From NCBI GenBank assembly GCA_947473355.1, contig CANJCQ010000007.1, positions 1 to 64,000 of the forward strand: 64,000 bases of DNA, read 5' to 3'. Made by a program: the position numbers and the translations under genes. This document shows positions 18,392 through 44,705 of the stretch, piece by piece. The notes below the pieces were generated by a model. It searched no databases. It saw nothing but the letters and a program-made list of their open reading frames with translations, and was not told the DNA's origin. Source of the stretch: Sphingomonadaceae bacterium (lineage in GTDB: Bacteria; Pseudomonadota; Alphaproteobacteria; Sphingomonadales; Sphingomonadaceae). Each line of letters starts with the position of its first letter. Position 1 is the first letter of the stretch.

Positions 18392-18395
18392 GGCG

Positions 18396-18899
18396 TCAGG
18401 CTCCTGCGCGGGGAGGCCCCGGCTGGACCAGTTCCAGCCGATAGCCTTCGGGGTCACTCATCATCAGCACCTGATAGCCTTGACCCCCGGCGCGGACTTC
18501 GCCGTGGGCATAGCCAAGCTGGGTCAGCCGCACGGCCAGCGCCGCCAGATCGGTCACCCGGATCACCAGCCGCGAAAAGTCATTGCCGTGGGTCAGGCTT
18601 TTTGGAGCATTTGGCGACGTGTCGTGCATCAGCAACAACGACGCCTGGCCAGGATTACCGGGGAACTGGAGGATGGTTTCGGTGCGGGTGCCAGCCGGCA
18701 GGGTCGCTGCGACCTTAAGGCCGAGCGCCTGGGTATAGAAGGCAATCTCGCGGTCGAGATCGACGACATTGAGCGCCGTGCCGATGAAGCTCGATCCCTG
18801 TGCCAGCGTGGTCGGCGTGGTCGGCGCGGTTGGTGCGAGCTCCGCTGCCAGCGCAGGCGTGCCCAGCGATGCTGCCAGTGTCATCAGGAGCCAGCGCAT
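18396..18899 (-). CDS. Putatively exported VOC/glyoxalase-like protein
   Basis: Signal-peptide-like MRWLLMTLAASLGTPALAA, then GTALNVVDLDREIAFYTQALGLKV...DPEGYRLELVQ. Confidence 0.82.
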   Translation of the reverse strand: MRWLLMTLAASLGTPALAAELAPTAPTTPTTLAQGSSFIGTALNVVDLDREIAFYTQALGLKVAATLPAGTRTETILQFPGNPGQASLLLMHDTSPNAPKSLTHGNDFSRLVIRVTDLAALAVRLTQLGYAHGEVRAGGQGYQVLMMSDPEGYRLELVQPGPPRAGA

Positions 18900-18903
18900 A
18901 GCC

Positions 18904-19422
18904 CTAGCGCTGTTCGGGCACACGGAACTGGTCGTGGCAATTTTTGCATGCCCCGCCAAGCCCGCGCGCGGCGGCGCGGATGGCATCGACATTGCCGCCC
19001 GCTGTGGCAGCCTGGAAGGCATCGGCAGCGCGGCCCAACTGATCCTGCGCGGCGCGGAATTCGACCGGCTTGGTCCAGATTTCCGGCTTGGCTGCGGTTT
19101 TCAGCCCCGGCGCCGGCCCGCTGCCCGCCGGGAACCAGCCGCGCAATGCCACCGAATCGTTCTTTATTGTCCGGGCCGATTGCTGAATCATGATGATCTG
19201 CGGCTCGCTGGCGCGAAGGGCGTCCATCGCATTCTTGAAGGCTGTCCCCATTTCCTTGAACCCGGCCTGGCGCGTGCGGATGATTTCGGCAGGCACCATT
19301 GCCGGTGCGCGCGCGGTTGCCGGAACGCGCGCAGTCCGTCCGGTCCCGCTTGCCACAAGCGGCGCGGCGACGATGGCCAAGGTAAGGGCGGCGAGAGCCG
19401 CAGTGGTGTGCAGGCGGTTCAT
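18904..19422 (-). CDS. Cytochrome c' (c-type cytochrome)
   Basis: Signal peptide; four-helix cytochrome c' pattern with C-terminal CKNCHDQFR heme motif. Confidence 0.87.
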   Translation of the reverse strand: MNRLHTTAALAALTLAIVAAPLVASGTGRTARVPATARAPAMVPAEIIRTRQAGFKEMGTAFKNAMDALRASEPQIIMIQQSARTIKNDSVALRGWFPAGSGPAPGLKTAAKPEIWTKPVEFRAAQDQLGRAADAFQAATAGGNVDAIRAAARGLGGACKNCHDQFRVPEQR

Positions 19423-19486: not shown

Positions 19487-20794
19487 TCAAGTGGCCGGTT
19501 TGCCCATTGCCTCAGCGTTTATTTCCTCTGGGCTGTCCTCTGGCTGAATGGCCGTGAAGCTGGGATAGCTTCCCAGCGCAAAGACCAGCAGCGCAGCGGC
19601 GCAGGAAGCGCCCATGCCCAACAGCAGATAGCCGTCATAGCTGCCCGACTTGTCGAAAATTGTCCCTGCAATAACCGGCCCCAGCCCGGCGCCCAGCCGC
19701 ATGGCGCTCGATATGACGCCATAGATTTTGCCGAAATGCAGCACGCCAACGTAGCGCGAGGTAAGGTAGGTGGTGATATTGATTGTCGCGCCAAGCGCAT
19801 AGCCGGCGCTCAGCGCGCCAAGCCACAGCACCAACTCGGAACCTTCGCCCTGACGCAGCAGCAGATAGCCAAGTCCCGTCCATAAGAAACAACTTACCGG
19901 CAGCAACGTCGTTGTCGTGCGGTCAGCCAGCCAGCCAGTGACCAATTGGCCCAGCATGGCCATCACTCCGGTTGCCGCAGCAATCGACGCCGCCTCAGCG
20001 CGGCTTATCCCCGAATGGCTCAGCATCGGGACCAGATGGAGAATGAGCCCGGTCGCCAGCGTACTCTGCAGCAGGATCGCGCATGCCAGTCGCAGGAAGC
20101 GGGGGGTGCGCAGCGCTTCGCCAAAGGTCAGGCCGCCCTGCGGCGTGCCCTGGCGATTCTGCTGGGCGGCGCTGGTTTCGCCTTTCCGGCGCGCGCGCGG
20201 ATCGTGGAAAAACAACAGGCAGATTACCAGTGCCAGCCCGGCCCAGCCGATCCCCAGGAACACATAGGCCATGCGCCAGCCATAGGCATCGATCAGCCAT
20301 CTTGAGGCCAGTGGCGTGACGATCTGGCCAATCGCGGTGCCGCCCATGACCACACCGATCGCCAGTCCGCGGCTCTTGGCAAAGGTCGCCGAGATCGCCC
20401 CGTTCCAAAGAAAGGTGCCGATCATCAGCTGGGTCAGCGTGTAAAGCACCCAGGCGCCAAGCCAGTGGGCGATCGATCCGGTGAGCAGGCCGAAGGCGGC
20501 GAAGGCGAGGCCGTTGAGCGCGAGGCCCGGCAGGCCGATGGTGCGCGTGCCAAATTTATCGACAGCCGCGCCATAAAACGGCACCAGCACGATGCTGATC
20601 ATCGCATAGATTGCCGGCCCATAGGAAATCTGGGCGCGGCCCCAGCCGAATTCCTTCTGCAGCGGCTCCATAAACAGTCCGAGCGAGGAACTCGGCGCTG
20701 TCAACCATGTGACCGCGAGCATGCAGGTCAGCACCAGTGGCCAATTGGCCTTCCACTCATCCATCGCGGTCTTTTGCCCGGCTTCCATTCCCAT
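19487..20794 (-). CDS. MFS transporter (paralog 1 of 3)
   Basis: LGLFMEPLQKEFGWGRAQIS; 12-TM MFS. Confidence 0.87.
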   Translation of the reverse strand: MGMEAGQKTAMDEWKANWPLVLTCMLAVTWLTAPSSSLGLFMEPLQKEFGWGRAQISYGPAIYAMISIVLVPFYGAAVDKFGTRTIGLPGLALNGLAFAAFGLLTGSIAHWLGAWVLYTLTQLMIGTFLWNGAISATFAKSRGLAIGVVMGGTAIGQIVTPLASRWLIDAYGWRMAYVFLGIGWAGLALVICLLFFHDPRARRKGETSAAQQNRQGTPQGGLTFGEALRTPRFLRLACAILLQSTLATGLILHLVPMLSHSGISRAEAASIAAATGVMAMLGQLVTGWLADRTTTTLLPVSCFLWTGLGYLLLRQGEGSELVLWLGALSAGYALGATINITTYLTSRYVGVLHFGKIYGVISSAMRLGAGLGPVIAGTIFDKSGSYDGYLLLGMGASCAAALLVFALGSYPSFTAIQPEDSPEEINAEAMGKPAT

Positions 20795-20827
20795 TCTGCT
20801 CCCTTTTGATTCTTCGTCTCGTCACGA

Positions 20828-22105
20828 TCAGGTCGTACTGGCAGGGCCTTCGATTGGAGTTTCGTTCTCTGCACTGGCTTCGAACACCGGGTATGGGCCA
20901 AGCGTCAAGACCGCCGCCCCGGCAGTAATCGATAGCGGAAGGCCCGCGATGAGCAGAACATAGTAGCTGTCCGTAGCGTCGAAAATCAGGCCTGCGATGA
21001 GCGGACCGATACCTCCGGCCAGCCCCAGAAGCCCGGTCATCACCCCGAAAATCTTGCCGTTGTGGCGCACGCCTCCGTATTGGACGGTCAGGAATGTAGT
21101 CATGTGGTAGGCTGCTCCCGAGCCAAGGCCGACAAGAAAAACTCCTGCAGACAGCAGCGAAGCGGAAGCTGCGCCTTGGAGCAGCAAGACATATCCGATC
21201 CCCGGCAGCGCAAAACATGCGGCTGGCAGAAAACTGCGCCTGACCAGATCTGCCAACCAGCCAACCACCAACTTGCCGCTGATCGAAGCAATGCCAAGAA
21301 TCGCGGCAATCCCTGCTGCACCAGCACGCGACATTTGCGACCATTCAAGGATCGGCACCAAATGCGACATGGCCGCAGCGGCCATCACTGCTTGAATCAT
21401 AATGGCGAAAGTTATCCGCTGAATGCGGCTGTCGCGCAGGGCCTGGCGCAGGGTCAGACCGCCGGGAAGCAGGCGGTCAGGGCTGCCAGGGGGGGCTTTG
21501 GCCCGTCTGCCGAACATGTCGTAAAAGAACAGCCAGACCATCAGCAAGGTGACACTGCCCCAGCCGAAGGCAAGCCCGATATAGCCGCCCCGCCAGCCGA
21601 AGTCGTCGATCAGCAGGCGCGCGATGATCGGCGACAGGGTCTGCGCCAGACCAAGCCCGCTAAGCACAATGGCGATTGCCAGCCCGCGGCTCGCCGAGAA
21701 GGCCCCGGACACGGCGGTGGCCCAAACTGGCGTCTTGGTCAGCAAGGTCACCAACGACAGGCAAAACCAGGCAAACAGCCAGCTGTAGATCGATGAATTG
21801 ACCAGGCTGATCGCTGCGAGAGCCATGATGGCGAGAACCAGCCCAGGAATTGCGATCCGCCGCGCGCCATAGCGATCTGCCAAAGCGCCGGAAAACGGAG
21901 CCAGCGGCGTGCTTACTATCGCGCTGATTGTCAGGGCGGCGGATATTTGCGCGCGGCTCCAGCCGAACTCATGCTGCAGTGGCACCATGAACACGCCGAG
22001 CGAAGTCGATGCCAGCGAAACGTATGACATTCCAAGCATTCCCGCAAAGGCCAGCGGCCCATACCGTTGCCATTCCTGTCGGGCAGTAAGCGGTGCTGAA
22101 GCCAT
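20828..22105 (-). CDS. MFS transporter (paralog 2 of 3)
   Basis: LGVFMVPLQHEFGWSRAQIS; 12-TM MFS. Confidence 0.87.
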   Translation of the reverse strand: MASAPLTARQEWQRYGPLAFAGMLGMSYVSLASTSLGVFMVPLQHEFGWSRAQISAALTISAIVSTPLAPFSGALADRYGARRIAIPGLVLAIMALAAISLVNSSIYSWLFAWFCLSLVTLLTKTPVWATAVSGAFSASRGLAIAIVLSGLGLAQTLSPIIARLLIDDFGWRGGYIGLAFGWGSVTLLMVWLFFYDMFGRRAKAPPGSPDRLLPGGLTLRQALRDSRIQRITFAIMIQAVMAAAAMSHLVPILEWSQMSRAGAAGIAAILGIASISGKLVVGWLADLVRRSFLPAACFALPGIGYVLLLQGAASASLLSAGVFLVGLGSGAAYHMTTFLTVQYGGVRHNGKIFGVMTGLLGLAGGIGPLIAGLIFDATDSYYVLLIAGLPLSITAGAAVLTLGPYPVFEASAENETPIEGPASTT

Positions 22106-22134
22106 TGCTTGTGTTCACTCCCGAATTGGCTGGA

Positions 22135-23412
22135 TCAGGTTGCCGGTTTGCCATCCGGGTCAGCGGCCGGGTCAGACCGCGAACCGAATTCGGGATAGGG
22201 CCCCAGCCCAATCAACAGAAACGCTGCCAGCAGGACTGTCGGTGCTGCGGCCAACAGCAAGGGGCGATAGGTACCCAGCATGTCGTGCAACAGCCCTGCG
22301 ATCGGCGGTCCGACTGCGGCTCCGAACATCAGCAAGCTGGCGACAATAGAGTAGATCTTGCCGAAATTGCGAAGGCCGCCGTATCGCCCGCACAAATAGG
22401 CGGTCACCTGAAACGATGCGCCTCCGGCAAAGCCCAGGATCATGACCGCAACAGTCAACATTGCGGTCGAATGGAACGGATTGACAAGCAATGCATCGCC
22501 AACAGCTCCGAGGGCAAAGGCGGCGAAAGGAAACAGAGGGCTGCGCACGCGATCGCACAGCCAACCTGCGACCAGTTTCCCCGCGATCCCGGCGACTCCA
22601 GCCGTGGCAGCAACCTCGGCAGCGCCAGTCCGGTCGAGCCCGCTCTCCATGAGCACCAGGGCGAGATGTGCGGCGACCCAGCCACCGATGAGCGTGAAGA
22701 GGAAATTGGTGAGGCCAATGCGGATGAGCGGGGGGCTGCGCAGCGCTTCATGCATGGTCAATCCCGGCAACTCAGCCGCAGCCGCCAGGCTCGTCAGTTG
22801 CGAACTGGATCCCTCGGGCGGTTTTTCGCGAAACATCAGCAGCACCAGCAGTGTCGCCAGTCCGCCCCAGAATACAGCGACTCCCAGGTAAGCCATGCGC
22901 CAGCCGTAATGAATGACCAGCCAGTTGGGGAGCAGCTTGGCAGTCGCCTCGGCGAGAGCCGTGCCGCACAGCATCACCGACAGGGCAAAGCCCCGACCGA
23001 CAGTGAACAGCCGGGTTACGGCGACGGTCCACACCGTCGACTTGATCAGCAGGCTCGCAAACCCCAAGGCCAGCCAAAGCAGGCACCACTGCACCAACGA
23101 ACCGTTGGCCAAGCCGATCGCTGCAAATCCGGCGCTCGACAGGAGCATTCCGGGCACGGCCACCCGGCGCGTACCGAAGCGGTCTATCAGGGCCCCGACT
23201 GCCGGGCCGAACAGCACCGGCAGAAGACTGAAAATCATCAGCCCGAGGTAGACCTGTGAACGCGAAAGCCCGAACTCGTGCTCGATCGGAGCGGCAAACT
23301 GATCGAACGAGTAAGTGACCATGGCATAGAACGACATGCCGAACATGGCCGACAGGACAACCGGCCAATAGGCTTTCCACTCTGCGCTGGTGGCAGTGGT
23401 CACTTCGCTCAT
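22135..23412 (-). CDS. MFS transporter (paralog 3 of 3)
   Basis: FDQFAAPIEHEFGLSRSQVY; 12-TM MFS. Confidence 0.86.
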   Translation of the reverse strand: MSEVTTATSAEWKAYWPVVLSAMFGMSFYAMVTYSFDQFAAPIEHEFGLSRSQVYLGLMIFSLLPVLFGPAVGALIDRFGTRRVAVPGMLLSSAGFAAIGLANGSLVQWCLLWLALGFASLLIKSTVWTVAVTRLFTVGRGFALSVMLCGTALAEATAKLLPNWLVIHYGWRMAYLGVAVFWGGLATLLVLLMFREKPPEGSSSQLTSLAAAAELPGLTMHEALRSPPLIRIGLTNFLFTLIGGWVAAHLALVLMESGLDRTGAAEVAATAGVAGIAGKLVAGWLCDRVRSPLFPFAAFALGAVGDALLVNPFHSTAMLTVAVMILGFAGGASFQVTAYLCGRYGGLRNFGKIYSIVASLLMFGAAVGPPIAGLLHDMLGTYRPLLLAAAPTVLLAAFLLIGLGPYPEFGSRSDPAADPDGKPAT

Positions 23413-23470
23413 GCGCTTGTCTCCCCCTCCCCCATGCTGCGCCATAATTTGGCGCCAGTCCAGTTTGCTG

Positions 23471-24388
23471 TCAGTCCAGCTTGGCAATGACCTCTTCGCC
23501 AAAGCGCCGGGCATTATCGCACCATTCGCTCCGCGAATCGGTCCAGACGCTGGTGCCTGAGCCGGAGATGCCCAGCCCCTTGAGGTGCATGAAGTTGTCG
23601 ATCGCTTCCTGTGCGTTCCATTCGCCCTTCATGCTGAAGGTTCCCGAACAGATCACTTCCGGCGGCACCTCGCGGCCGATCTTGGCGCAATGCTCGCGGA
23701 TATAGGCGATGGCGGCGAGAATTTCCTCGTCGGTTTCGATATTGGCAGTGCGCGCGGTGTCAGTGACCGCCTTGGGCACAAAGAAGGGATGCCAGGCATC
23801 GCCGAATTCCGCCGCCCGCCGCAGCGCGCGCTTGGAGTTGCCGCCGACCAGCAGCGGCGGATGGGGTTTTTGCACAGGGGTCGGCAGCACGCGGTTGCCG
23901 ACGGCAGTGTAGCCGGTGCCCTCGAAGCTGAAATCCTCGCCGGTCCAGGCCAGCTTCATCGCCCGGATATATTCGTCCATCAGGTCGTTGCGGTTGTCGA
24001 AATCGACGCCCAGCGCCTTGAATTCGGGCTTGAGGTAGCCAGCCCCCATGCCGAAAATGAAGCGCCCACCGCTGAACCGGTCGAGCGAGGAGACTGCCCG
24101 CGCGGTCACGAATGGATTGCGATAAGGCAGCACCACAATGTTGGTCAGCAGTTTCAGCTTGGTCGTCACAGCCGCCACCATTGACAGCATGACGAAGGGA
24201 TCCTGCGCATAGTGCCCGCCGTTATCGAGCCAGCGATAGGAAGGGACGGGATGATCGGTGACGCTGCCGGCGGTGAAACCGGCTTCCTCGGCCGCGCGGG
24301 CGCATTCGACTACGGCATCCTGCGAAACGAAGGCCTCGGGATGTTCGATCTGGTCGAAGGGAAAAGTGATGCTGACATGGAAAGACAT
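23471..24388 (-). CDS. LLM-class (luciferase-like) oxidoreductase, probably F420-dependent
   Basis: ARAAEEAGFTAGSVTDHPVP, NIVVLPYRNPFVTARAVSSLDRFSGGRFIFGMGAGYLKPEF, HPPLLVGGNSKRALRRAAEFGDAWHP. Confidence 0.88.
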   Translation of the reverse strand: MSFHVSITFPFDQIEHPEAFVSQDAVVECARAAEEAGFTAGSVTDHPVPSYRWLDNGGHYAQDPFVMLSMVAAVTTKLKLLTNIVVLPYRNPFVTARAVSSLDRFSGGRFIFGMGAGYLKPEFKALGVDFDNRNDLMDEYIRAMKLAWTGEDFSFEGTGYTAVGNRVLPTPVQKPHPPLLVGGNSKRALRRAAEFGDAWHPFFVPKAVTDTARTANIETDEEILAAIAYIREHCAKIGREVPPEVICSGTFSMKGEWNAQEAIDNFMHLKGLGISGSGTSVWTDSRSEWCDNARRFGEEVIAKLD

Positions 24389-24414
24389 GCGTTGGTTCCT
24401 GCTTGAAAATTTGA

Positions 24415-25269
24415 TCAATTGACTTCGGGCGGGAGAATCCAGTTGTTGGTCTTGTCCCGGATCCAGCCGCTTGAAGCCCAGGAACCGCCATCAACCGGGA
24501 TCAGAGCGCCGGTGATATAGGTCGACATGCGCGAGGCGAGGAAAACGGCGAGCTGGCCGCATTCCTCATCGATCCCGGCGCGGCCCCAGGGGATGCGGCG
24601 GCGGATGATCTCGAGCTGCTCGGGCGGCATTTTCAGATTGGCCGTGTCGGATACCGGACCGGTAAAATTACCAGTAACACCGGGAGTTATCGTATAATCC
24701 GGAGCAATCGCATTAATCCGGATGCCGTGCTCCGCCAGTTCAACCGCCAGAGTGCGGGTCAGGTTATTGATCCCGGCCTTGCAGGCCGCATAGACAGCAT
24801 AGCCCGGCGCTGCGCGGCTGCCTTCGATCGAGGTCACATTGATGATCGCGCCGCCGCGTCCACCTGCGATCATGATCGGGATGGATGCCTGGGTTGCGGC
24901 AAGATTGCTGATCAGGTTGAGATCGATGTGGCGGGCCCAGTTCTTGGGCTGCAGGTCGACGAATGCTCGCCGGGTGACCCCGCCGGCATTGTTGACCAGA
25001 ATATCGAGCCGCCCGAACTGCTTTGCTGTCTCGGCCACCGCGGCCTGCAGCGGCTCCACTTCCATCACGTTGATCGGAAACTGCAACGCCCGGCGCCCGC
25101 GTTTTTCCACCTCTGCGGCCGTCTCGGCACAGCGATCGGGGATCACGTCGACGATGGCGACATCTGCGCCCATGTCTGCAAAGCACAGCGCGCATGAGCG
25201 CCCAATGCCGCCGCCGCCGCCCGTGACAAAAGCCACTTGCCCGGTCAGATCAATATCGCTGGCATCCAT
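24415..25269 (-). CDS. SDR family oxidoreductase
   Basis: VAFVTGGGGGIGRSCAL, DILVNNAGG, YAVYAACKAGINNLTRTLAVELAEHGIRINAIAPD. Confidence 0.9.
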   Translation of the reverse strand: MDASDIDLTGQVAFVTGGGGGIGRSCALCFADMGADVAIVDVIPDRCAETAAEVEKRGRRALQFPINVMEVEPLQAAVAETAKQFGRLDILVNNAGGVTRRAFVDLQPKNWARHIDLNLISNLAATQASIPIMIAGGRGGAIINVTSIEGSRAAPGYAVYAACKAGINNLTRTLAVELAEHGIRINAIAPDYTITPGVTGNFTGPVSDTANLKMPPEQLEIIRRRIPWGRAGIDEECGQLAVFLASRMSTYITGALIPVDGGSWASSGWIRDKTNNWILPPEVN

Positions 25270-25292
25270 TTTTTTCTCTCCCAATCTTACTT

Positions 25293-25880
25293 CTACGGAC
25301 TCATCAGCCCCGCTGCATCGGGCAAATCCTCCGGCATATCAATATCGCGCGCCAGCCCCTGGCTGTGCACTTCCTCAATCCTGATTCCCAGCCGATTGGC
25401 CTCGGCATGATGCTTGGCAAAGCTGTCAGGCCCGAAGGCGAACGTAAAGCCCCTTGCTTGTGGCAGGGGCAGCGAAAGTGCATTTGTCCCGGTTCCGTGG
25501 CGATCGGGGGCCATTGCAATGGTGCCTGTTGGCGCAGCGGCGAGTAGTTCGATGTCCTGTCTGGTCAGCACCGGCAGATCGGCGAACAGCACGATCATGC
25601 GCGTCGCTCCGCCTTGCAATGCCTGCACAAGCGCCGCGTGCAGCGCCGGGTTGAGCCCCGTGCCGGGATCGGCGAGCAAACGGATGTGCTCGGGCAAGTC
25701 CAGCCGCGTCGGGCCGAGCAGACATAGTTGCTGGACATGGGAAGCCTCGCTGGCAACACTCACCACATGATGCAGCATCGCGGAGGCCAGCGCTGCGCGC
25801 TGAGCCTCGCTGAGCGCACCGGCCAGCCTGCCCTTGGCCTGTCCTGGCTGCTTGAAGGGTATGACGACCCAGCAGGTCAT
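25293..25880 (-). CDS. cofC: CofC: phospholactate/PEP-type guanylyltransferase (F420 biosynthesis)
   Basis: WVVIPFKQPGQAKGRLAGALS, LADPGTGLNPALHAAL, IVLFADLPVLT, HGTGTNALSL, FAFGPDSFAKHHAEA. Confidence 0.92.
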   Translation of the reverse strand: MTCWVVIPFKQPGQAKGRLAGALSEAQRAALASAMLHHVVSVASEASHVQQLCLLGPTRLDLPEHIRLLADPGTGLNPALHAALVQALQGGATRMIVLFADLPVLTRQDIELLAAAPTGTIAMAPDRHGTGTNALSLPLPQARGFTFAFGPDSFAKHHAEANRLGIRIEEVHSQGLARDIDMPEDLPDAAGLMSP

Positions 25881-25905
25881 GGCCTGCGGGTTACGGTTTC
25901 GCCAG

Positions 25906-26571
25906 TCACGGAATTGCTGGGGCAGTGGTCAGGTTGGTGAAGCGGATCCCCGCGCCATCGGCGGCATAATTCTTGTTCATGTAGATCAGGATCGATGTCA
26001 GCGCCTCGGCCGCTGCCGAATTGGCAAGCGCTCCCCCGACCAGACCGCGTAGCCCCATGTCGTTCACCAGCGCGACAACCATCTTGCGGGCCTCGACATC
26101 ATCGCCGAACACCAGCACATCGCATTCGACTTTGGCTTCACTATCAAGAATATGCGCGGCAACATTATGAAATGCCGTGACGAAGAGAATATCCGGCCCA
26201 AGATGCTCGCGCGCCTCCAGCGCGGCGCAACCGGCGGCGGGCAGTTGCACCCGCATCACCTTGGGCGGCATCAGAGGCACAGTTGTATCAACCACGATGG
26301 CGCTGCCTACATGCGGCGCAATCTGCTTCAGTGTCGATTCCTGGTTCTCATAGGGCACTGTGACGATAACGATGTCCTTGCCCTGAACCACTTCGGTATT
26401 GGCGCCCGACGCCAGCGACAGACCCAGTGCGGCGTTCATTTCGGCGGCAATGGCGTCGGCCTTGTCGGCGGCGCGGCTGCCGATGGTGACCTGATGTCCG
26501 CCCTGCGCTAGACGGCGGGCAATGCCCTTGCCGAGATGTCCGGTGCCGCCGACTACTGCGATTGTCGCCAT
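25906..26571 (-). CDS. npdG: F420:NADPH oxidoreductase (NpdG/Fno-like)
   Basis: ATIAVVGGTGHLGKGIARRLAQGGHQVTIGSR; VTVPYENQ; GGALANSAAAEALTSILIYMNK; adjacent to F420 genes. Confidence 0.9.
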   Translation of the reverse strand: MATIAVVGGTGHLGKGIARRLAQGGHQVTIGSRAADKADAIAAEMNAALGLSLASGANTEVVQGKDIVIVTVPYENQESTLKQIAPHVGSAIVVDTTVPLMPPKVMRVQLPAAGCAALEAREHLGPDILFVTAFHNVAAHILDSEAKVECDVLVFGDDVEARKMVVALVNDMGLRGLVGGALANSAAAEALTSILIYMNKNYAADGAGIRFTNLTTAPAIP

Positions 26572-26676
26572 GTCTGTGTCTCTCCCTTGGAATTCGCGAT
26601 TGCTTGGCTGGGCTCCAGCCGATAGCGGCAGGGACGAGTGAGGCAACACAATTGTCGCGGTAACTATGGGGAAGTC

Positions 26677-27459
26677 ATGCAGGCGCAGAAACCTTTAAGC
26701 GTCTCGCCGCTGCAGGGCATGCCGTTGTTCGCTCCGGGCATGTCGGTTGCCGCCGAAGTGGTGGCTGCAATGCTGCGCGACGGCGATGTGGTGCGCAGCG
26801 GCGATATTGTGGTGGTGGCGCAAAAGATTGTGTCCAAGGTTGAAGGGCGGATAGTGCGGCTGGCCGATGTCCAGCCCGGCGCGCCAGCGCGGGAACTTGC
26901 CGCAAAGGCCGCGCGCGAGCCAGAAATGGCGCAACTGATCCTCGACGAGTCGAGCGAGATCCTGCGCGCCACCCTCGCCGCGATCATTGCCCGGCACAAG
27001 ACCGGCCATGTCCTCGCCAATGCCGGGATCGATGCCTCGAACGTCGAGCATGGCGATGGCGGAACTGTCCTGCTCTGGCCGACAGACCCTGATGCTAGCG
27101 CTCGCGCCATTCGCGCCGAATTGGCCGCATTGACCGGCCAACACCCAGCCGTCGTTATTGCCGACAGCCTCGGCCGGGCATGGCGGATCGGCACAGTCGG
27201 CGCAGCGATCGGCTGCGCTGGCCTATGCGTGCTCGATGACCGGCGCGGCACGGGGCAGGACCTGTTCGGGCGGACCTTGCAGGCAACCGTCATCGCCGTT
27301 GCCGATGCCGTGGCTGCCATGGCCGTGCTGGCGATGGGCGAGGGGGCGGAAGGCACGCCCGTGGCGCTGGTGCGCGGCGGCGGGCACTGGGTGACTGACG
27401 ACGATGGCCCGGGCGCGGCCAGCGCGCTCAGGCCTCAAGCGGAGGATATGTTCCGATGA
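26677..27459 (+). CDS. cofE: CofE: coenzyme F420-0 gamma-glutamyl ligase (no C-terminal FbiB reductase domain)
   Basis: SGDIVVVAQKIVSKVEGR, LANAGIDASNVE, VVIADSLGRAWRIGTVGAAIGCAGL. Confidence 0.94.
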   Translation: MQAQKPLSVSPLQGMPLFAPGMSVAAEVVAAMLRDGDVVRSGDIVVVAQKIVSKVEGRIVRLADVQPGAPARELAAKAAREPEMAQLILDESSEILRATLAAIIARHKTGHVLANAGIDASNVEHGDGGTVLLWPTDPDASARAIRAELAALTGQHPAVVIADSLGRAWRIGTVGAAIGCAGLCVLDDRRGTGQDLFGRTLQATVIAVADAVAAMAVLAMGEGAEGTPVALVRGGGHWVTDDDGPGAASALRPQAEDMFR

Positions 27460-28400
27460 GCCACGTGCTCGCGCTTTCTGGCGGCGTCGGCGGGGCCAAA
27501 CTCGCCGCCGGGCTTTCCGCCGTCCTGCCGCCCCAGGACCTCACCATCGCCGTCAATACCGGCGACGATTTCGAACACTTGGGCCTCACAGTCTGCCCGG
27601 ACATCGATTCGGTAGTCTATGCCCTCGCCGGTCTCAACGACGAGAAGCGCGGCTGGGGCATCGCCGACGAGTCATGGCGGACCATGGAGCGACTGGGCGC
27701 TCTTGGCGAGGCCCAGTGGTTCAACCTCGGCGACCGCGACATGGCCATGCACATTGCGCGCTCGTGGCGGTTGCGCGCCGGCGAGAGCCTGTCCGATGTC
27801 ACGGCGCGGCTGACCGGGGCGCTGGGGATTGCCCACAAAGTGGTGCCGATGAGCGACGCGCCGGTGCGCACGCAAGTGGAGACAGAGCAGGGATGGCTTG
27901 ATTTCCAGCACTGGTTCGTGGGCGAGCAATGCAAGCCCGAAGTGCGCGGCATCCGCTTTGCCGGATTGCCTGCAAAGCCCTCGCCGGGGCTGGCAGCTGC
28001 GCTCGCGCGGCCAGACCTTGCCGCCATCGTGATCTGCCCCTCGAACCCCTTCGTCAGCGTCGATCCGATCCTCGCGCTGGAAGGCGTACGCGCCGCGCTG
28101 GAAAGCCGCCGCGTGCCGCTTGTTGCTGTCTCGCCATTGGTCGGCGGACAGGCGATCAAGGGCCCGCTTGCCAAGATGCTTGCCGAACGCGGAATGGCCT
28201 GCAATAATCTCGCCATCGCCGACCATTACTCCGGCCTGCTCGATCACTTGCTGGTCGATCATGCCGACGGCGCGCAAGCCCACGAAGTCAGGGCCCGCGG
28301 CGTTGCAGTAAGCGTGTCGGCAACAGTCATGTGCACAGCCGATGACCGGGCAAGGCTGGCGCGCGAAGCACTGTTGGCGGCCGGCTACGCAATGGGTTGA
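27456..28400 (+). CDS. cofD: CofD: 2-phospho-L-lactate (or analogue) transferase
   Basis: LALSGGVGGAKLAAGL, VNTGDDFEHLGLTVCPDIDSVVYAL, ICPSNPFVSVDPIL, VSPLVGGQAIKGPLAKML; 4-nt overlap with cofE. Confidence 0.96.
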   Translation: MSHVLALSGGVGGAKLAAGLSAVLPPQDLTIAVNTGDDFEHLGLTVCPDIDSVVYALAGLNDEKRGWGIADESWRTMERLGALGEAQWFNLGDRDMAMHIARSWRLRAGESLSDVTARLTGALGIAHKVVPMSDAPVRTQVETEQGWLDFQHWFVGEQCKPEVRGIRFAGLPAKPSPGLAAALARPDLAAIVICPSNPFVSVDPILALEGVRAALESRRVPLVAVSPLVGGQAIKGPLAKMLAERGMACNNLAIADHYSGLLDHLLVDHADGAQAHEVRARGVAVSVSATVMCTADDRARLAREALLAAGYAMG

Positions 28401-28403
28401 GGC

Positions 28404-30722
28404 ATGACTTCGCACGATTCCGCGCTTTTCGCGCGTATGTTGAACACACCACTGGACGCACTGCTGGCTGAGGCGCGCGCGCGCCGCGATGCGCGCGGCC
28501 CTGCGCGGATGACCTATTCGCCCAAGGTTTTCATACCCCTGACGCGATTGTGCACCGACGTTTGCCATTACTGCACTTTTGCCACGACTCCCTCGCGGCT
28601 TTCCGCACCCTATCTGACGCCTGAGGAAGTGCTCGACATCGCCCGCGCTGGCGCCGCTGCCGGGTGCAAGGAAGCGCTTTTCACGCTCGGCGATGCGCCC
28701 GAGCGGCGTTATGCCGTGGCGAAGGAATGGCTGGAAGCGCGCGGTTTTGCGCGCACTATCGACTATGTGCGCCACTGCGCCGAGCTCGTGCTGAACGAGA
28801 CCGGCCTCTTGCCACACGTCAACGCCGGGGTGCTCGAAGAGGCCGACTACCTGATGTTGCGGCCTTTCGCGGCCTCCTGCGGCCTGATGCTGGAAAGCAC
28901 TTCCGAAAAGCTGCTCGAAAAGGGCGGGGCGCATTATGGCTCTCCGGACAAGGTTCCGGCGGTGCGGCTGGCCTCGCTCGAAGCCGCAGGCCGCGCGCGC
29001 GTGCCAATGACCAGCGGCGTGCTGATCGGCATCGGCGAGACGCCCCAGGATCGCATCGAAGCGCTGTTCGCGCTGCGCGATCTGCATCTGGCGCACGGCC
29101 ACCTGCAGGAAGTCATCGTCCAGAACTTCTGCCCCAAGCCCGGCACCAAGATGTCCGGCGCGCCCGAGGCCAGCGAGGACGACTTCCTGCGCGTCATCGC
29201 GGCGGCGCGGATCGTGCTGCCCGACGAGGTTTCGGTCCAGGCACCGCCCAATCTCAATGGTGAGAGACTGGATGAACTGATTGCTGCAGGTATCGACGAT
29301 TGGGGCGGAATTTCGCCGGTCACTCTCGATCACGTCAATCCCGAAGCGCCCTGGCCGGAAGTGGCCATGCTCGAGGAAGTCTGCGCCGCTGCGGGCCGTC
29401 CGCTGGTCGAACGCCTGACCATCTATCCGCGTTTTGTCGCCACTGACGATCACTCTTGGATCGACGCCAAACTGCGCCCGCATGTGCTCAAGCTGTCCGA
29501 CGCCGAAGGCCTCGCCCGCGACAGTCGCTGGAGCCCCGGCCTGTCCGAACTGGCACCCGGCACCCCCTCCGCGCCGCTCGGCCGCCGCCATTCCGGGCCA
29601 GTCGCCACTTCGCTGCATCGCACGCTCGATCGCGCCGCCAATGGCGCCGAGCTCAGCGAAGCCGAGATCGTCTCGCTGTTTGCCACGCGCGGCGCGGCTG
29701 CACAGGCCGTGATCGACGTGGCGGACGGACTGCGTCAGGAAACGCGCGGTGACACAGTGACTTACGTCGTCAACCGCAACATCAATTACACCAACATCTG
29801 CTCTTACGCCTGCACCTTCTGCGCCTTCTCCAAGAGCTCAAGCAAGGCGGGCTTCCGCGACAAGCCCTACATGATCGACGCCGGAGAAGTGGCAAGCCGT
29901 GCCCGCGAGGCCGTGGAGCGGGGCGCAACCGAAGTCTGCCTGCAAGGCGGCATCCACCCGAGCTACACCGGCGAAACCTATTCCGCCATCGTGCGCGCAG
30001 TGAAGGCGGCTTGCCCGGACCTCCACATCCACGCCTTCTCGCCGCTCGAGATCTGGCAGGGCGCGCAGACTTTGGGCATGACGACGCGCGATTACCTGAT
30101 GCGGCTCAAGGACGACGGCCTCGGTTCGCTCCCCGGCACATCGGCGGAAATCCTCTGCGATGACGTGCGCGCGGTGATCTGTCCTGACAAGCAGACCGTG
30201 GCCGAATGGCTCGGCGTGGTGCGTGACGCGCATCTGGTCGGCATTCCGACCACATCGACGATCATGTATGGGCACATCGAACGCCCTGAACACTGGGCGC
30301 GGCACATCCTGGCCCTGCGACACCTTCAGGGCGAAACCGGCGGCTTCACCGAATTCGTGCCCCTGCCTTTGGTCCACATGGAAGCTCCGATGTATCGCCG
30401 CGGCCAGTCGCGCAAAGGCCCGACCTGGCGCGAGGCGTTGATGATGCACGCGGTGGCTCGGATCGCGCTATACCGGCAGATCGATTCGATCCAGTGCTCA
30501 TGGGTCAAGCTCGGCATGCCCGGCGCGGCGGCGGCGCTGGCGGCGGGGGTCAACGATCTCGGCGGTGTCCTGATGAACGAAAGCATCAGCCGGGCGGCGG
30601 GCGCGGAGCATGGGCAAGAAGTCAGCGTTGATGATCTGCGCAGCGCGGCGGCATCGGCCGGGCGCAGGCTCAGGCAGCGCACTACGCTCTACAAGGATGT
30701 AGCATCCTTCGAAGACGCGTGA
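28404..30722 (+). CDS. fbiC: Fused CofG-CofH FO synthase (FbiC-type)
   Basis: Two radical-SAM CX3CX2C motifs: RLCTDVCHYCTF (N-term) and NICSYACTFCAFS (C-term); 772 aa two-domain ORF directly after cofD. Confidence 0.95.
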   Translation: MTSHDSALFARMLNTPLDALLAEARARRDARGPARMTYSPKVFIPLTRLCTDVCHYCTFATTPSRLSAPYLTPEEVLDIARAGAAAGCKEALFTLGDAPERRYAVAKEWLEARGFARTIDYVRHCAELVLNETGLLPHVNAGVLEEADYLMLRPFAASCGLMLESTSEKLLEKGGAHYGSPDKVPAVRLASLEAAGRARVPMTSGVLIGIGETPQDRIEALFALRDLHLAHGHLQEVIVQNFCPKPGTKMSGAPEASEDDFLRVIAAARIVLPDEVSVQAPPNLNGERLDELIAAGIDDWGGISPVTLDHVNPEAPWPEVAMLEEVCAAAGRPLVERLTIYPRFVATDDHSWIDAKLRPHVLKLSDAEGLARDSRWSPGLSELAPGTPSAPLGRRHSGPVATSLHRTLDRAANGAELSEAEIVSLFATRGAAAQAVIDVADGLRQETRGDTVTYVVNRNINYTNICSYACTFCAFSKSSSKAGFRDKPYMIDAGEVASRAREAVERGATEVCLQGGIHPSYTGETYSAIVRAVKAACPDLHIHAFSPLEIWQGAQTLGMTTRDYLMRLKDDGLGSLPGTSAEILCDDVRAVICPDKQTVAEWLGVVRDAHLVGIPTTSTIMYGHIERPEHWARHILALRHLQGETGGFTEFVPLPLVHMEAPMYRRGQSRKGPTWREALMMHAVARIALYRQIDSIQCSWVKLGMPGAAAALAAGVNDLGGVLMNESISRAAGAEHGQEVSVDDLRSAAASAGRRLRQRTTLYKDVASFEDA

Positions 30723-31316: not shown

Positions 31317-32102
31317 TCAAGGCCGCATGATCCAGCCACCGTCAATGTGAATCACCTGCCCGGTAATCCACTTGCCGGCCTCCGAACACAGCAGCACCGC
31401 CGCGCCGACGAGCTCCTCCGGCTCTCCGCGCGGCTTGGTGGCGACAGCCATTTGCAGGAACTGGATGAACGGCGAATCGTCTGGCACCAGCATCTTGCCC
31501 GCGTCCGATGTGACATTGCCCGGCGCGATGGCGTTGCAGGTGATGTTGTCCGGGCCCCATTGCTTGGCGAGGCTGGTGGTTAGGCCGACCAGCGCGATCT
31601 TGGTGATGCCGTAGAGGCTGGTTGCCGGGTATGCGCCGCCCGAGCTTTGGTTGATGATCCGCCCGCCGCCGCGTGTGCGCATCGAAGGCGCGCAGGCGCG
31701 GGCGCAGAGCAGGGCGCCGGTGGTGTTGACCGCGAAGGCCTTGTTCCAGGCCTCGATCGGCACAGTGTCGATCGAATCGTAGCTGATATCGACCATCAGG
31801 GCGGCGTTGTTGATAAGGATATCGATCCCGCCGAACTCCGCTATTGCCGAGGCGGCCATGGCCAGCGTCGAGGCCTCGTCGGATACATCGACCTGAACTG
31901 CGACGGCCTTGCCGCCCGCCGCATTGATTTCGTCGGCGACCTTCTGCGCGCCTTCGCCATTGAGGTCGGCCACCACCACCGAGGCCCCAGCATTGGAAAG
32001 GCCAAAGGCATAGGCCCGCCCAATCGAATTGCCGCGCCCGCCCGCGCCGGTGACAATCGCGACTTTGCCGTCGAGGCGGAATTGATCGAGGGTGAAGGTC
32101 AT
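31317..32102 (-). CDS. SDR family oxidoreductase
   Basis: GKVAIVTGAGGRGNSIGRAYA, DILINNAALM, SLYGITKIALVGLTTSLAKQWGPDNITCNAIAPG. Confidence 0.9.
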   Translation of the reverse strand: MTFTLDQFRLDGKVAIVTGAGGRGNSIGRAYAFGLSNAGASVVVADLNGEGAQKVADEINAAGGKAVAVQVDVSDEASTLAMAASAIAEFGGIDILINNAALMVDISYDSIDTVPIEAWNKAFAVNTTGALLCARACAPSMRTRGGGRIINQSSGGAYPATSLYGITKIALVGLTTSLAKQWGPDNITCNAIAPGNVTSDAGKMLVPDDSPFIQFLQMAVATKPRGEPEELVGAAVLLCSEAGKWITGQVIHIDGGWIMRP

Positions 32103-32120
32103 TGGGGGTGCTCCGTGAGT

Positions 32121-32921
32121 TCAGTCGGCGGTGGCGGCGAAAAAGCTGCTCGCCGCATCGGCCAATTTGTTCGCGTCGGCGCTGCTTGGCAGGATCGCTT
32201 GCAGCAGGTTCATATCCTTGACCAGCAGCGGCCCGCCCAGCCAGGGGACGGGCGGTTGCGGCATGCGGCTATAAATCTCCATGCCCATGCTGCGCCCGCT
32301 GCTCTGGCTGACCAGTTCGGCGAGCGCCTTGCGGTCGATCCCCAGCGCTTCGGCAGCGGCCAGCGCATGGTAGGCGATGCCGAGATGGGCCGAGAGCAGC
32401 GCGTTATTGACGATCTTGGCCTTTTGCCCTGCGCCGGGCGGGCCGAGCAGCACGATCAGCCCGCCGAATGTCTCGAACACCGGCTTTGCCGCTGCGAAAG
32501 CCTCCGCCGAAGCGCCGCACATAACGGTCAGCGTGCCCGCCTCGGCAGCGGGCAATCCACCGCTGACGGGGGCATCGATCAGCTGGATGCCGCGCGCGGC
32601 GCATTGCGCTTCGAGTGTGATGCAGCTTTCGGGCAGGATGGTGGAATGGATCGCGATCCGGCTGCCGCTTTTCATCACCGGGATCAGCTGGTCGGTGATC
32701 TGGAAAACATCGGCATCAGTAACCACGCAGATGCCGACGTGATCGCAGGCCGCGCCAAGTTCGGCAACGCTGGCCGCTGCCTTGGCCCCTTTCGCGACAT
32801 AGGCCTCCAGCGCCTCTGGACGCCGCGCCCAGACCGTCAGGTCTAGCCCCGCATCGACGATCCGGTGCGCCATCGGGCCGCCCTGGCTGCCCACACCGAT
32901 GAAACCTGTTTTCTCAGACAT
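32121..32921 (-). CDS. NAD(P)-dependent oxidoreductase, 3-hydroxyisobutyrate dehydrogenase family
   Basis: TGFIGVGSQGGPMAHRIVDAG, LIDAPVSGGLPAAEAGTLTVMCG, KIVNNALLSAHLGIA. Confidence 0.88.
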   Translation of the reverse strand: MSEKTGFIGVGSQGGPMAHRIVDAGLDLTVWARRPEALEAYVAKGAKAAASVAELGAACDHVGICVVTDADVFQITDQLIPVMKSGSRIAIHSTILPESCITLEAQCAARGIQLIDAPVSGGLPAAEAGTLTVMCGASAEAFAAAKPVFETFGGLIVLLGPPGAGQKAKIVNNALLSAHLGIAYHALAAAEALGIDRKALAELVSQSSGRSMGMEIYSRMPQPPVPWLGGPLLVKDMNLLQAILPSSADANKLADAASSFFAATAD

Positions 32922-32926
32922 GCTAA

Positions 32927-33682
32927 TTAACCCGCTGTTATACCGGCATCAATCGAGATGCAAGCGCCGTGATACGAGCGCCCTGCAGGCGATGCCAGCA
33001 TGGTGACGAGGTCCGCGACGTCGTCCACCTCGACCTGCCCGCGCAGGCCAGAATAGCGCGCGATCAGGTCCATCTCTGCCTCGGCGGGGAAAGTCATGCC
33101 GTCGGAAATGTTGGTGATCATGCCGCCCGGCGCGACCGCGTTGATGCGGATCGGCTGGCGGGCATATTCCATCGCCATGGCCTTGGTCATGTTCATCAGC
33201 CCCGCCTTGCTGGCGCAATAGGCCGCAGCATAGGCCTCGCCGATGAAGGAGGCGGAGGAGCAGCAATTGACGATAGCGCCGCTGGTTTCCAGCAAATGCG
33301 GGATCGCCGCTTGGCTCAGGAACCACGGCGCGTTGAGATTGATGGCTATGGTCTGGAGGTAATGGTCGCGCGGCATATCGGTGGTCCGCGCCATGCGGAT
33401 GATCCCGGCGATGTTGCACAGTGCGTCGAGCCGCCCGAAATGCGCCACAGCCGCCGCGACTGCGCCGGTGCAGGTATCGGGATCGGCGAGATTGGCGACG
33501 TGCGTCAGCACCTTGGCCGTGCCCAGCATACCCGCCGTCTCGGCCAGCCGCTCCGCGTTGACGTCGACGATGCACAGGTCCGCGCCCGCTTCCGCCAGTT
33601 TGCGCGCGCTGGCCCGGCCAAGCCCCGAGGCGGCGCCGGTAACCAGCGCGACCTTGCCGCTCATGTCCACTTTCATTGCCAT
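32927..33682 (-). CDS. SDR family oxidoreductase
   Basis: GKVALVTGAASGLGRASAR, DALCNIAGI, YAAAYCASKAGLMNMTKAMAMEYA. Confidence 0.9.
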   Translation of the reverse strand: MAMKVDMSGKVALVTGAASGLGRASARKLAEAGADLCIVDVNAERLAETAGMLGTAKVLTHVANLADPDTCTGAVAAAVAHFGRLDALCNIAGIIRMARTTDMPRDHYLQTIAINLNAPWFLSQAAIPHLLETSGAIVNCCSSASFIGEAYAAAYCASKAGLMNMTKAMAMEYARQPIRINAVAPGGMITNISDGMTFPAEAEMDLIARYSGLRGQVEVDDVADLVTMLASPAGRSYHGACISIDAGITAG

Positions 33683-33683
33683 G

Positions 33684-34469
33684 TCAGCCGTTCCACGGAA
33701 GGCCGGCTTCGACCTTCTTGATCATTTCAAAGACAACCCCCTGGATCACCGATGCCTTGGGCCAACCAGCGATGGTGCCATATTGCAGCACGAATTCCTG
33801 CAATTCGGCGCCCGTGCAGTTGCCGCTGGCCATGGCCGCGTGGAAGTGGCTGCCGATCGGGATCACCGCGCAGCTTTCCGCCACGCCGACCAGCGTCAGC
33901 CAGCGGCGCGAGCGCTGATCCAGCCCTTCGCGGCCCCACATTTCGCCGAACACGAAATTGTTGATCGCTTCCAGATAGGGAGTGATCGAGGGACTGCCGG
34001 GGAAGGTCATGGCCTTGACGAATTCTTCCCCGCCATGCGCGGTGCGCTCGTCCGGATCCCAGGCCTCGGCCCGGATTGGCGGGCGCGGGGCAGGGGGCAG
34101 GCCAAGCGCCGCAGCGGCGCGGGTCGCGGCCTTGTCGATCAGGTCGCCGGTGCCCCAGCCGCCATAGACCGCCAGGTGCAGCGCTGCTTCGCGCAGTTCG
34201 GCCAGGCTGACCTTGCCAGTGCGGAGAGCGGCGGTTACCACACCCTCGATGGTGCTTTCGGGATAGCGGCAAAGTGCGGCCCCCGCGATTCCGATCAGGA
34301 AGCGCGCGCGCAGATCGAGGCCCGGACGGCTCCACACTTCGGCATAGATGAAATCGCGGACGCTTTCTTCCCATGGCGTCTGCGGGGCAGCGGGGGCCTC
34401 GCCATAGACTTTGGCTTGCAACGCCGCACCGCGCGCGCTGCGTTCCTTGGGGTCAAGCAGCTTGCTCAT
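33684..34469 (-). CDS. Tandem carboxymuconolactone decarboxylase-family protein
   Basis: Two CMD-like repeats: EAALHLAVYGGWGTGDLIDKAATRAA and EFVLQYGTIAGWPKASVIQGVVFEMI. Confidence 0.85.
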   Translation of the reverse strand: MSKLLDPKERSARGAALQAKVYGEAPAAPQTPWEESVRDFIYAEVWSRPGLDLRARFLIGIAGAALCRYPESTIEGVVTAALRTGKVSLAELREAALHLAVYGGWGTGDLIDKAATRAAAALGLPPAPRPPIRAEAWDPDERTAHGGEEFVKAMTFPGSPSITPYLEAINNFVFGEMWGREGLDQRSRRWLTLVGVAESCAVIPIGSHFHAAMASGNCTGAELQEFVLQYGTIAGWPKASVIQGVVFEMIKKVEAGLPWNG

Positions 34470-35947
34470 GCGTCGGGTCCTTTCAGGCTCATCCAGATGT
34501 TCTTGGGCTGCATGAATTCATTGAGCCCCTCGATGCCGCCGAGCCGCCCGTGGCCGCTCTTCTTCCAGCCCCCAAAGGGACAATTGGGCTGCATTGCCTC
34601 GCCTGAGCCGTTGACGTGGATCATGCCCGCCTGAAGCTGCGCCGTGACATGATGCGCGCGGCGCAGGTTCTGGGTGTGGACGTATGCGCCGAGGCCATAT
34701 TCGGTGTCATTGGCAAGCGCGATGGCTTCGTCCTCGGTGTCGAACGGGGTCACTGCCAGCACTGGCCCGAACACTTCGTTCTGGGCGATTTCGCTGGAAT
34801 TGGGCACATCGGCGAGCACAGTGACTGGCAGGTAATAGCCTCCGGCATGATCGCCGCCGAGCCGCGTGCCGCCTGCGACAATTCGCCCGCCTTCGGCTGT
34901 TCCGCGTTCGACCATGCCAAGGATGCGGTTGATAGCCGTCTCGGAAATGACCGGGCCAAGCATGGTCTGCGGATCGAGCGGGTCGCCGCAGACGATATGT
35001 CCGGCCATCGCCGAAAGGGTCTGTACATAGGCGTCATAGATGCCGCGCTGGACAAGCAACCGGGTGCCGTTGACACAGCCCTGACCATTGGCCGCGACCG
35101 CACCGGAAAGCCCGAACTTGGCGGCGCTCATCAGGTCTGCGTCGTCGAACACGATAACTGCCGACTTGCCGCCCAGTTCCAGCCCGACAGGCTTCAGCGA
35201 CTGCGCCGCGCTGGCCAGCACTTTCTTCGCCGTGCCTCCCGAGCCGATGAATTCGATCTTGTCGATGCCGGAGTGCAGCACCATGGCCTCGCCCGCGTCG
35301 GCCGCGCCGGTGATCATGTTGACCACGCCTGGCGGGAAGCCAGCCTCGCGGATGATCTCGGCCAGCATCATCGCCGAATAGGGGGCAAGGTCGGGCGATT
35401 TGAGCACCACGCAGTTGCCGGCAGCAAGGGCCGGGGCCATGACCATCGTCGCGGCAAACAGCGGACCGTTCCACGGAATGATCACGCCGACGACGCCATA
35501 GGGCTCATAGGTCACATAGTCATGCGCCGGGCCGCCCCACATCGGAACCGTGCGGCCATGGATCTTGTCGCACCAGCCGCCGAAATAGCGAAACTTCTGC
35601 GCTGCATCATGGCCCATGTGCGGCGCATAGGCCCCGATCGAGCCGTTTTCGGCGACGAGGCTGGGGGCGAATTCGGCAGACTTGGCTTCGAACAGCGCGG
35701 CGAGCTTGAAGAACAGATTGCGCCGCTGATCGCCTGGCATGGCGCGCCAGGCGGGGAAGGCCTTCCGGGCGGACTGAACAGCGCGGTCGACGTCATCAGC
35801 ATTGGCCATGCGGATTTCGCGGGTGACCGTGCCGGTGCCGGGATAGATATGCGCGAGTAAATCGCCGCTGCCGGCTTCTTCGCCGAGGCCATCGATGATG
35901 ATCGGATGTCGGGGCAGCTTGTCCACTGCCGGATTCAGGAAACCCAT
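34466..35947 (-). CDS. Aldehyde dehydrogenase
   Basis: ALAAGNCVVLKSPDLAPYSAMML, EFIGSGGTAKKVLASAAQSLKPVGLELGGKSAVIVFDDAD, NGQGCVNGTRLLV, QNEVFGPVLAV. Confidence 0.93.
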   Translation of the reverse strand: MGFLNPAVDKLPRHPIIIDGLGEEAGSGDLLAHIYPGTGTVTREIRMANADDVDRAVQSARKAFPAWRAMPGDQRRNLFFKLAALFEAKSAEFAPSLVAENGSIGAYAPHMGHDAAQKFRYFGGWCDKIHGRTVPMWGGPAHDYVTYEPYGVVGVIIPWNGPLFAATMVMAPALAAGNCVVLKSPDLAPYSAMMLAEIIREAGFPPGVVNMITGAADAGEAMVLHSGIDKIEFIGSGGTAKKVLASAAQSLKPVGLELGGKSAVIVFDDADLMSAAKFGLSGAVAANGQGCVNGTRLLVQRGIYDAYVQTLSAMAGHIVCGDPLDPQTMLGPVISETAINRILGMVERGTAEGGRIVAGGTRLGGDHAGGYYLPVTVLADVPNSSEIAQNEVFGPVLAVTPFDTEDEAIALANDTEYGLGAYVHTQNLRRAHHVTAQLQAGMIHVNGSGEAMQPNCPFGGWKKSGHGRLGGIEGLNEFMQPKNIWMSLKGPDA

Positions 35948-36052
35948 ATTATCCACTCCCGGGCGAGCATGAGAATCGCTCGCCGCATTGTTGATTGGAG
36001 ACTGACGCAAGCGGCGCCTACTGGCAAGCGCCGTGTCGAGTCGGCTAATCTA

Positions 36053-36868: not shown

Positions 36869-37342
36869 CTACATCGCGCGGGTCTGTTCCCATGCGGCAT
36901 CGGTGCACCAGACATATTCGAGATAGTGCCCCATCGTGCTGCGCGCATCGATGTAGAGGAATTTGAGGCTGTCGCCGCCGCCGGTATCGCGCCACATCAC
37001 CACTGGCAGGTCTTGCGCCTTGGTGCGCGCGAGGAAATCTTCCCAGGAGCCTTCGACCCGCATGCAGACCTGGTGGAAGCGTATCGGGCCGCCGTTTGAA
37101 GGCGCATTGGCATAGATGCCGAGCGGGTCGGTCAAAGGCTGGATCAGCTCGTATTGCACGTCGCCGATCCAGATGAAGCACAGCCGCAGCTTGTTGATCA
37201 CCTCGCCGGTCGGCGAATCGACTGGCTGGTCGACCTCGATGATATGCGGCTCATGCGTCATGCCGCGCCCGCGGAACTGGGCGATGCCTTCTTCCAGACT
37301 GTCGCAGACATAGCCGAGCTGGTAGAATTTGCCTTCGATCAT
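36869..37342 (-). CDS. VOC family protein
   Basis: FYQLGYVCDSLEEGIAQFRGR, IRFHQVCMRVEGSWEDFLART; glyoxalase/epimerase-like fold pattern. Confidence 0.8.
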   Translation of the reverse strand: MIEGKFYQLGYVCDSLEEGIAQFRGRGMTHEPHIIEVDQPVDSPTGEVINKLRLCFIWIGDVQYELIQPLTDPLGIYANAPSNGGPIRFHQVCMRVEGSWEDFLARTKAQDLPVVMWRDTGGGDSLKFLYIDARSTMGHYLEYVWCTDAAWEQTRAM

Positions 37343-38668: not shown

Positions 38669-38813
38669 TCTGAAAAGCTCCTCAATCCCGGTAAAATTCT
38701 GCGAGGCCTGCAATGGCCTTCGAAGCGGGCAGCTAACCCGCAAGCATGTATCCTTGGCAATGCGCTTCATGCGGCCAATCGGGTCAGATAGTCGAATTCA
38801 GGCCAATACTCGC

Positions 38814-39701: not shown

Positions 39702-39841
39702 TAATTGTCCTCGATTGCACGATATGGCCTGAAATCTATAGCGAGCACACTTGCGGCGCAAGCCGCTTGCGCCAAACATCGCCGCACACAAGATCGGCGC
39801 CTGCGCGGGCGCCATATCAATCATGGGCTGAGGAGATTTTC

Positions 39842-40660: not shown

Positions 40661-40667
40661 TTCAGGC

Positions 40668-41459: not shown

Positions 41460-41476
41460 GGCGCGGCTTTGGGAGA

Positions 41477-44635: not shown

Positions 44636-44705
44636 AGATTTCCTTGTTTGCAGCCGCGGGCGCCCTTGGGCAGGGCGCACCCACATTATTGGAAGATATC
44701 GAACG

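Follow-up and report, generated by a model that had tools for sequence, protein, structure and literature searches.

The core F420 locus

The window analysed here, the whole 64,000-nt stretch of DNA, carries at positions 25293–30722 a compact set of genes for the biosynthesis and reduction of coenzyme F420. Membership of the window proteins in families was judged by curated NCBIfam cut-offs, and by this measure all five genes named in the initial annotation (cofC, cofE, cofD, a fused cofG-cofH and an F420:NADPH oxidoreductase gene) were recovered. Every Cof model named there scored over its cut-off, as did TIGR01915. The features of the locus are as follows.

25293–25880, minus strand: cofC, (phosphoenolpyruvate / 2-phospho-L-lactate) guanylyltransferase; TIGR03552 147 bits, cut-off 105
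25906–26571, minus strand: npdG/fno, NADPH:F420 oxidoreductase; TIGR01915 160 bits, cut-off 149.8
26572–26676, no strand: divergent npdG/cofE intergenic region of ~105 bp with probable promoters, from start-site analysis
26677–27459, plus strand: cofE, F420-0:gamma-glutamyl ligase, single domain; TIGR01916 249 bits, cut-off 180.7
27456–28400, plus strand: cofD, LPPG/EPPG:FO transferase; TIGR01819 283 bits, cut-off 257
28404–30722, plus strand: cofGH (fbiC-type fusion), FO synthase with two radical-SAM domains; NF006687 1097 bits, cut-off 1018

The two halves of CofGH also matched their domain equivalogs (TIGR03550, 499 bits, cut-off 213; TIGR03551, 534 bits, cut-off 374), and the two radical-SAM CX3CX2C motifs reported for the fusion are intact, with CTDVCHYC at residue 50 and CSYACTFC at residue 466. 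The nearest solved structure to NpdG was 5n2i, an F420:NADP oxidoreductase; PDB matches of CofD were headed by CofD (3c3d), followed by FbiA (6uvx), and those of CofE were limited to the archaeal CofE structures 2phn, 7uld and 2g9i. The genes form two divergent, compact operons with intergenic spacing of -4 to +25 bp inside each. The longest open reading frames (ORFs) of npdG and cofE extend to 26649 and begin at GTG 26638, respectively; in both cases an inner ATG (26571 for npdG, 26677 for cofE) is the better start, with a purine-rich, Shine-Dalgarno–like stretch upstream.

Predicted F420-dependent enzymes at the locus and in the genus

Two more genes lie in the operon of cofC and npdG, one for a luciferase-like monooxygenase (LLM) family protein and one for a short-chain dehydrogenase (SDR).

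23471–24418, minus strand: LLM oxidoreductase, TIGR03619 (F420-dependent) subfamily, 235 bits, cut-off 166.9; 20/21 island-type loci
24415–25284, minus strand: SDR1, short-chain dehydrogenase of the npdG-cofC operon; 17/21 island-type loci

Since both belong to this operon, the functional unit is larger than the five genes first described. The 21 island-type loci include the window; some are clipped at contig ends, so that all gene counts among them are lower bounds. The order LLM-SDR-CofC-NpdG followed divergently by CofE-CofD-CofGH is retained in most of them, and their CofGH proteins are 73–82% identical to that of the window.

CofGH sequences of same-genus genomes were identical to those on named contigs of N. 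chloroacetimidivorans, N. album, Novosphingobium sp. PhB165 and sp. JCM 18896, and the window was therefore assigned to Novosphingobium, in line with the sphingomonad host originally suggested. Among 196 genomes of the genus, 80 (~41%) were scored as CofGH-positive (match at E<1e-90, some fragmentary) and 116 as CofGH-negative; 75/196 contained CofGH over the curated cut-off. At the family level, CofG was found in 55 of 399 sampled genomes and in 25 of 96 genera. The initial annotation had implied that an F420 locus is a rarity in such a host; this implication is not borne out, because F420 in Alphaproteobacteria has been published (PMC8498797) and CofGH is common in the genus, and the locus is thus no surprise of its kind. 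An approximate FastTree phylogeny of CofGH (141 rows) resolved at least three separate clades within the genus. The next relatives of the window's clade were a Caulobacteraceae metagenome-assembled genome and Sphingomonas sp. Root710; the others were a large second clade and a third that includes Sphingobium scionense, both mostly with the gene order CofGH-NpdG-CofE-CofD-CofC. In many loci of the second type a different TIGR03619 LLM adjoins cofC.

Comparison of CofGH-positive and -negative genomes revealed that F420-dependent enzyme families are confined to the positive ones. Orthologs of the window LLM were present in 48/80 positive versus 0/116 negative genomes (Fisher p 1.4e-24), PF04075 in 61/80 versus 0/116 (p 3e-34), and strong TIGR03619 matches (E<1e-50) in 70/80 versus 0/116 (p 9e-43). 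These p-values treat genomes as independent and ignore shared ancestry; the total absence in CofGH-negative genomes is therefore the firmer observation. PF04075 was likewise absent from 14 control genomes. The window's own genome is rich in such genes, with four PF04075 (Ddn-type) proteins and seven or more TIGR03619 proteins that exceed the cut-off.

Predicted function and alternative explanations

We predict, with a probability of about 0.85, that the locus is a working module for the biosynthesis and use of F420; the module is real and probably functional. In the proposed route, CofGH would make FO, CofC would activate a C3 phospho-acid (phosphoenolpyruvate, PEP, or 2-phospho-L-lactate, and not 3-phosphoglycerate, 3-PG), CofD would couple the activated C3 phospho-acid to FO, and CofE would add glutamates. 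NpdG would then most likely pass hydride from NADPH to F420. No Fgd protein scored over cut-off in the window's own genome; Fgd was therefore dropped as a candidate F420 reducer, which leaves NpdG as the sole recognised F420-reducing enzyme. The LLM, and perhaps SDR1, are likely dedicated consumers of F420H2 that would feed the catabolic pathway of the island, and the same F420H2 pool would supply the four Ddn-type proteins and six or more further LLM proteins of TIGR03619 encoded elsewhere in the genome. Alternatively, the flow may be reversed, with the LLM acting as an F420-reducing dehydrogenase and NpdG producing NADPH.

Several points weigh against a working module. Membership in TIGR03619 is no proof of F420 use, and the predicted fold of the LLM (predicted local distance difference test score, pLDDT, 78) matches FMN-dependent (MsuD, SfnG) and F420-dependent enzymes alike. 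A reductase of the FbiB C-terminal/FbiE type was found over cut-off in 0/196 genomes of the genus, a search that a diverged enzyme could escape, and the route to mature F420 is consequently incomplete on paper. In addition, F420 was obtained only in trace amounts from two other Alphaproteobacteria (PMC8498797).

The first of these points leads to an alternative that we regard as unlikely, namely that the adjoining LLM and SDR are catabolic enzymes of the usual FMN- or NAD(P)-dependent kind which happen to be encoded in the island, with F420 being used by enzymes elsewhere. Such a reading fits the fold matches of the LLM, which are mostly to the FMN-dependent MsuD/SfnG, and the two island loci (G004/L208 and L023) in which the five Cof/NpdG genes stand without an adjoining LLM or SDR. 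However, it accounts poorly for the confinement of LLM orthologs to CofGH-positive genomes, for the position of both genes within the tightly spaced npdG-cofC operon, and for the different TIGR03619 LLM beside cofC in many second-type loci.

The incomplete route raises another possibility, which appears quite unlikely: the pathway may halt at dehydro-F420 or yield a variant such as 3PG-F420 instead of classical F420. The window CofE lacks the FbiB nitroreductase (dehydro-F420-0 reductase) domain, no FbiE-like protein scored over cut-off, and the best FbiB C-terminal match in the window's own genome reached 33 bits versus a cut-off of 249.6. Thus the description of the locus as apparently complete holds for the core Cof set, but not for the whole route, for which an FbiB-type reductase over cut-off and a recognised source of 2-phospholactate are both missing. 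On the other side, an unrecognised reductase or 2-phospholactate source would close the gap, and the saturated forms are reportedly more stable than dehydro-F420 (PMC8764529).

As for the variant, alignment of CofC with PDB 6bwg, 7p97 and 2i5e revealed the motif FGPDS, which is identical in the PEP-binding FbiD of M. tuberculosis; its specificity position holds Gly, whereas CofC enzymes that use 3-PG carry Ser there. Ser or Thr at this site, CofC position 162, is the mark of 3-PG-accepting enzymes (PMC8764529), and because the window enzyme has Gly instead, 3PG-F420 was rejected as the product. The Gly is kept in the Novosphingobium relatives with an alignable motif; two second-type sequences were gapped at this position.

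The gap would be filled either by 2-phospholactate formed via an unrecognised route or by an unrecognised dehydro-F420-0 reductase; a comparable gap has been described in archaea (PMC6450877). As a general dehydro-F420 reductase we considered a nitroreductase family of ~216 aa, which was found in just nine genomes, all CofGH-positive; this candidate is unlikely, since it occurs in few of the 80 CofGH-positive genomes. The search otherwise gave only weak nitroreductase matches. The window's own genome (G000) encodes a member of the ~216-aa family on contig C44 (L228:9726-10373), and in some relatives the gene lies within ~4 kb of a TIGR03619 LLM; it is a possible F420-linked reductase candidate on these grounds.

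Production of FO alone, which some organisms use as a photolyase chromophore (PMC8498797), is very improbable here, given that a linked set of CofC, CofD, CofE and NpdG is present and is retained across the genus and that F420-dependent families co-occur with CofGH. It is scarcely credible that the proteins belong to other pathways and only resemble Cof enzymes (as menaquinone MqnC/MqnE, other nucleotidyltransferases or other CofD-family proteins would): these families are indeed homologous, with 362 bits for the MqnC model and 39 bits for the arsenosugar CofC-like model, but the MqnC, MqnE and arsenosugar CofC-like models all fell under their own cut-offs, whereas the Cof models exceeded theirs, and the five genes are adjacent.

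The catabolic island and its chromosomal slot

The F420 genes lie within a larger island, in agreement with the adjoining catabolic island noted initially. Its remaining features are listed below.

11219–44700, no strand: whole F420/catabolic island, between thiE (10589–11218) and cysD-cysNC-cysQ (~44700–48351)
19487–23514, minus strand: tandem array of three MFS transporters, lying downstream of the LLM gene, one Pfam-scanned and two assigned by similarity; family in 12/21 island loci
31317–36010, minus strand: accessory catabolic block of SDR2, HIBADH-like, SDR3, CMD and ALDH; minority of island loci
36869–37342, minus strand: VOC/glyoxalase-fold protein; 17/21 island loci
37502–38770, minus strand: 3'-phosphoadenosine 5'-phosphosulfate (PAPS) sulfotransferase (Sulfotransfer_3), PF13469 147 bits; 16/21 island loci
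38814–39824, minus strand: AraC-family regulator; 13/21 island loci
40638–43749, plus strand: SDR, zinc-type alcohol dehydrogenase (ADH) and alkyl-sulfatase-like metallo-beta-lactamase; 14, 14 and 15 of 21 island loci, respectively

The island is flanked by tkt, gapdh, pgk, fba and thiE on one side and by cysD-cysNC-cysQ on the other. In six relatives (G058, G113, G035, G033, G043 and G007) the gap between thiE and cysD is ~1.3 to 3 kb and contains no island, and in G004 the slot is filled by the five Cof/NpdG genes alone. G043, with its empty slot, yet carries another CofGH elsewhere in its genome. The LLM, SDR, VOC, sulfotransferase, alkyl-sulfatase-like, ADH and AraC families were absent in 19 sampled loci of the other type or second copies, one LLM excepted.

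The sulfotransferase ortholog was found in 51/80 CofGH-positive versus 3/116 CofGH-negative genomes. The window protein contains the motifs GIPRTGTT (5'-PSB) and HRDP...S (3'-PB); among the 27 relatives read, HRDP was present in all and G[IV]PRTGTT in 24. The alkyl-sulfatase-like protein (42499–43749) has QxHxDH in place of the HxHxDH of SdsA/Pisa1-type enzymes, and may therefore not be a sulfatase; the Gln replacing the first His was kept in 17 of 18 relatives read, and in the last the pattern matched elsewhere. Together, the sulfotransferase and the alkyl-sulfatase-like protein suggest a putative role for sulfation. We also considered a dedicated PAPS supply by the neighbouring cysDNCQ genes, which is unsupported: cysNC occurs in 187/196 genomes of the genus, mostly with one strong match each, so that the adjacency may reflect the insertion slot alone.

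It is conceivable, though quite doubtful, that the island as a whole encodes an F420H2-dependent catabolic pathway not yet described. The PAPS sulfotransferase would sulfate a hydroxyl of the substrate, the alkyl-sulfatase-like protein and the SDR/ADH enzymes would process the product, and the F420-dependent LLM/SDR pair would reduce or oxidise it, with F420 synthesis carried in the pathway's own cluster.

The MFS trio (19487–23514) is an apparent local expansion; in many relatives the LLM is followed by one MFS gene. The island's outer edge (17394–19422) has genes for a cytochrome b561-type protein and a cytochrome c', near which lies a small cysteine-containing ORF (18053–18457) with a twin-arginine–like start; homologs of the cytochrome c' were found again near the LLM in two relatives.

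Comparison with known F420 systems

F420 synthesis in Alphaproteobacteria is already known, with F420 found experimentally in Paracoccus denitrificans and Oligotropha carboxidovorans (PMC8498797). When the literature was searched for work on F420 in sphingomonads, including Novosphingobium, nothing specific appeared among the papers listed; the original F420 survey of aerobic soil bacteria was outside its reach, and an earlier report is possible. What is new here is the chromosomal thiE/cysD island, the neighbour families recurring over the 21 loci, and the confinement of F420-enzyme families to F420-positive genomes. According to a 2021 review of the field, the purpose of F420 in Proteobacteria was an open question, and among bacteria F420-dependent enzymes had been studied experimentally only from Actinobacteria (PMC8498797). 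The module is ordinary in kind; however, it gives a better-than-usual handle on what Proteobacteria do with F420, as the tight coupling of F420 genes to a catabolic cluster, and to enzymes confined to F420-positive relatives, offers a lead on its use in such bacteria. The island is defined, some relatives naturally lack it, a pair of candidate enzymes is linked to it, the missing step is clear and the genus has cultured members, so that both F420 use and the last reduction step are directly testable.

The core genes are the same as in the clusters of Paracoccus, Oligotropha, Croceicoccus and Sinorhizobium meliloti, in the last two of which cofH, cofD, cofC/cofE and npdG are annotated on plasmids (megaplasmids). 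In contrast to these clusters, the window's CofGH clade comprises Novosphingobium and near relatives, and its locus occupies the thiE/cysD slot and is tied to the sulfotransferase/alkyl-sulfatase-like catabolic cluster. The mycobacterial fbiABCD system shares the FbiC-type fusion and, in FbiD, the FGPDS motif of the window CofC, but the window CofE is not fused to a dehydro-F420-0 reductase domain. The 3PG-F420 cluster of Mycetohabitans is likewise a proteobacterial pathway, and the window CofC is closest in PDB to 7p97; it lacks the diagnostic Ser, however, and Mycetohabitans reportedly has no genes for F420-dependent enzymes (PMC8498797), whereas the window's genome has many.

The second and third Novosphingobium CofGH clades are F420 gene sets of the same genus, often beside a TIGR03619 LLM, but differ from the window locus in tree position, gene order and neighbours. 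Some genomes contain two full CofGH loci, mostly differing in clade and order, and so have parallel sets of F420 genes within a single cell (L147/L148 in G157, L115/L161 in G024, L119/L162 in G051, L123/L165 in G183 and L159/L158 in G012). In six loci of the second type (L161:2354-3316, L162, L151, L155, L163 and L165), cofGH has a protein matching 3,5-dioxohexanoate:acetyl-CoA acetone transferase (NF053538, 533 bits) in its neighbourhood, which suggests a different linked catabolic pathway.

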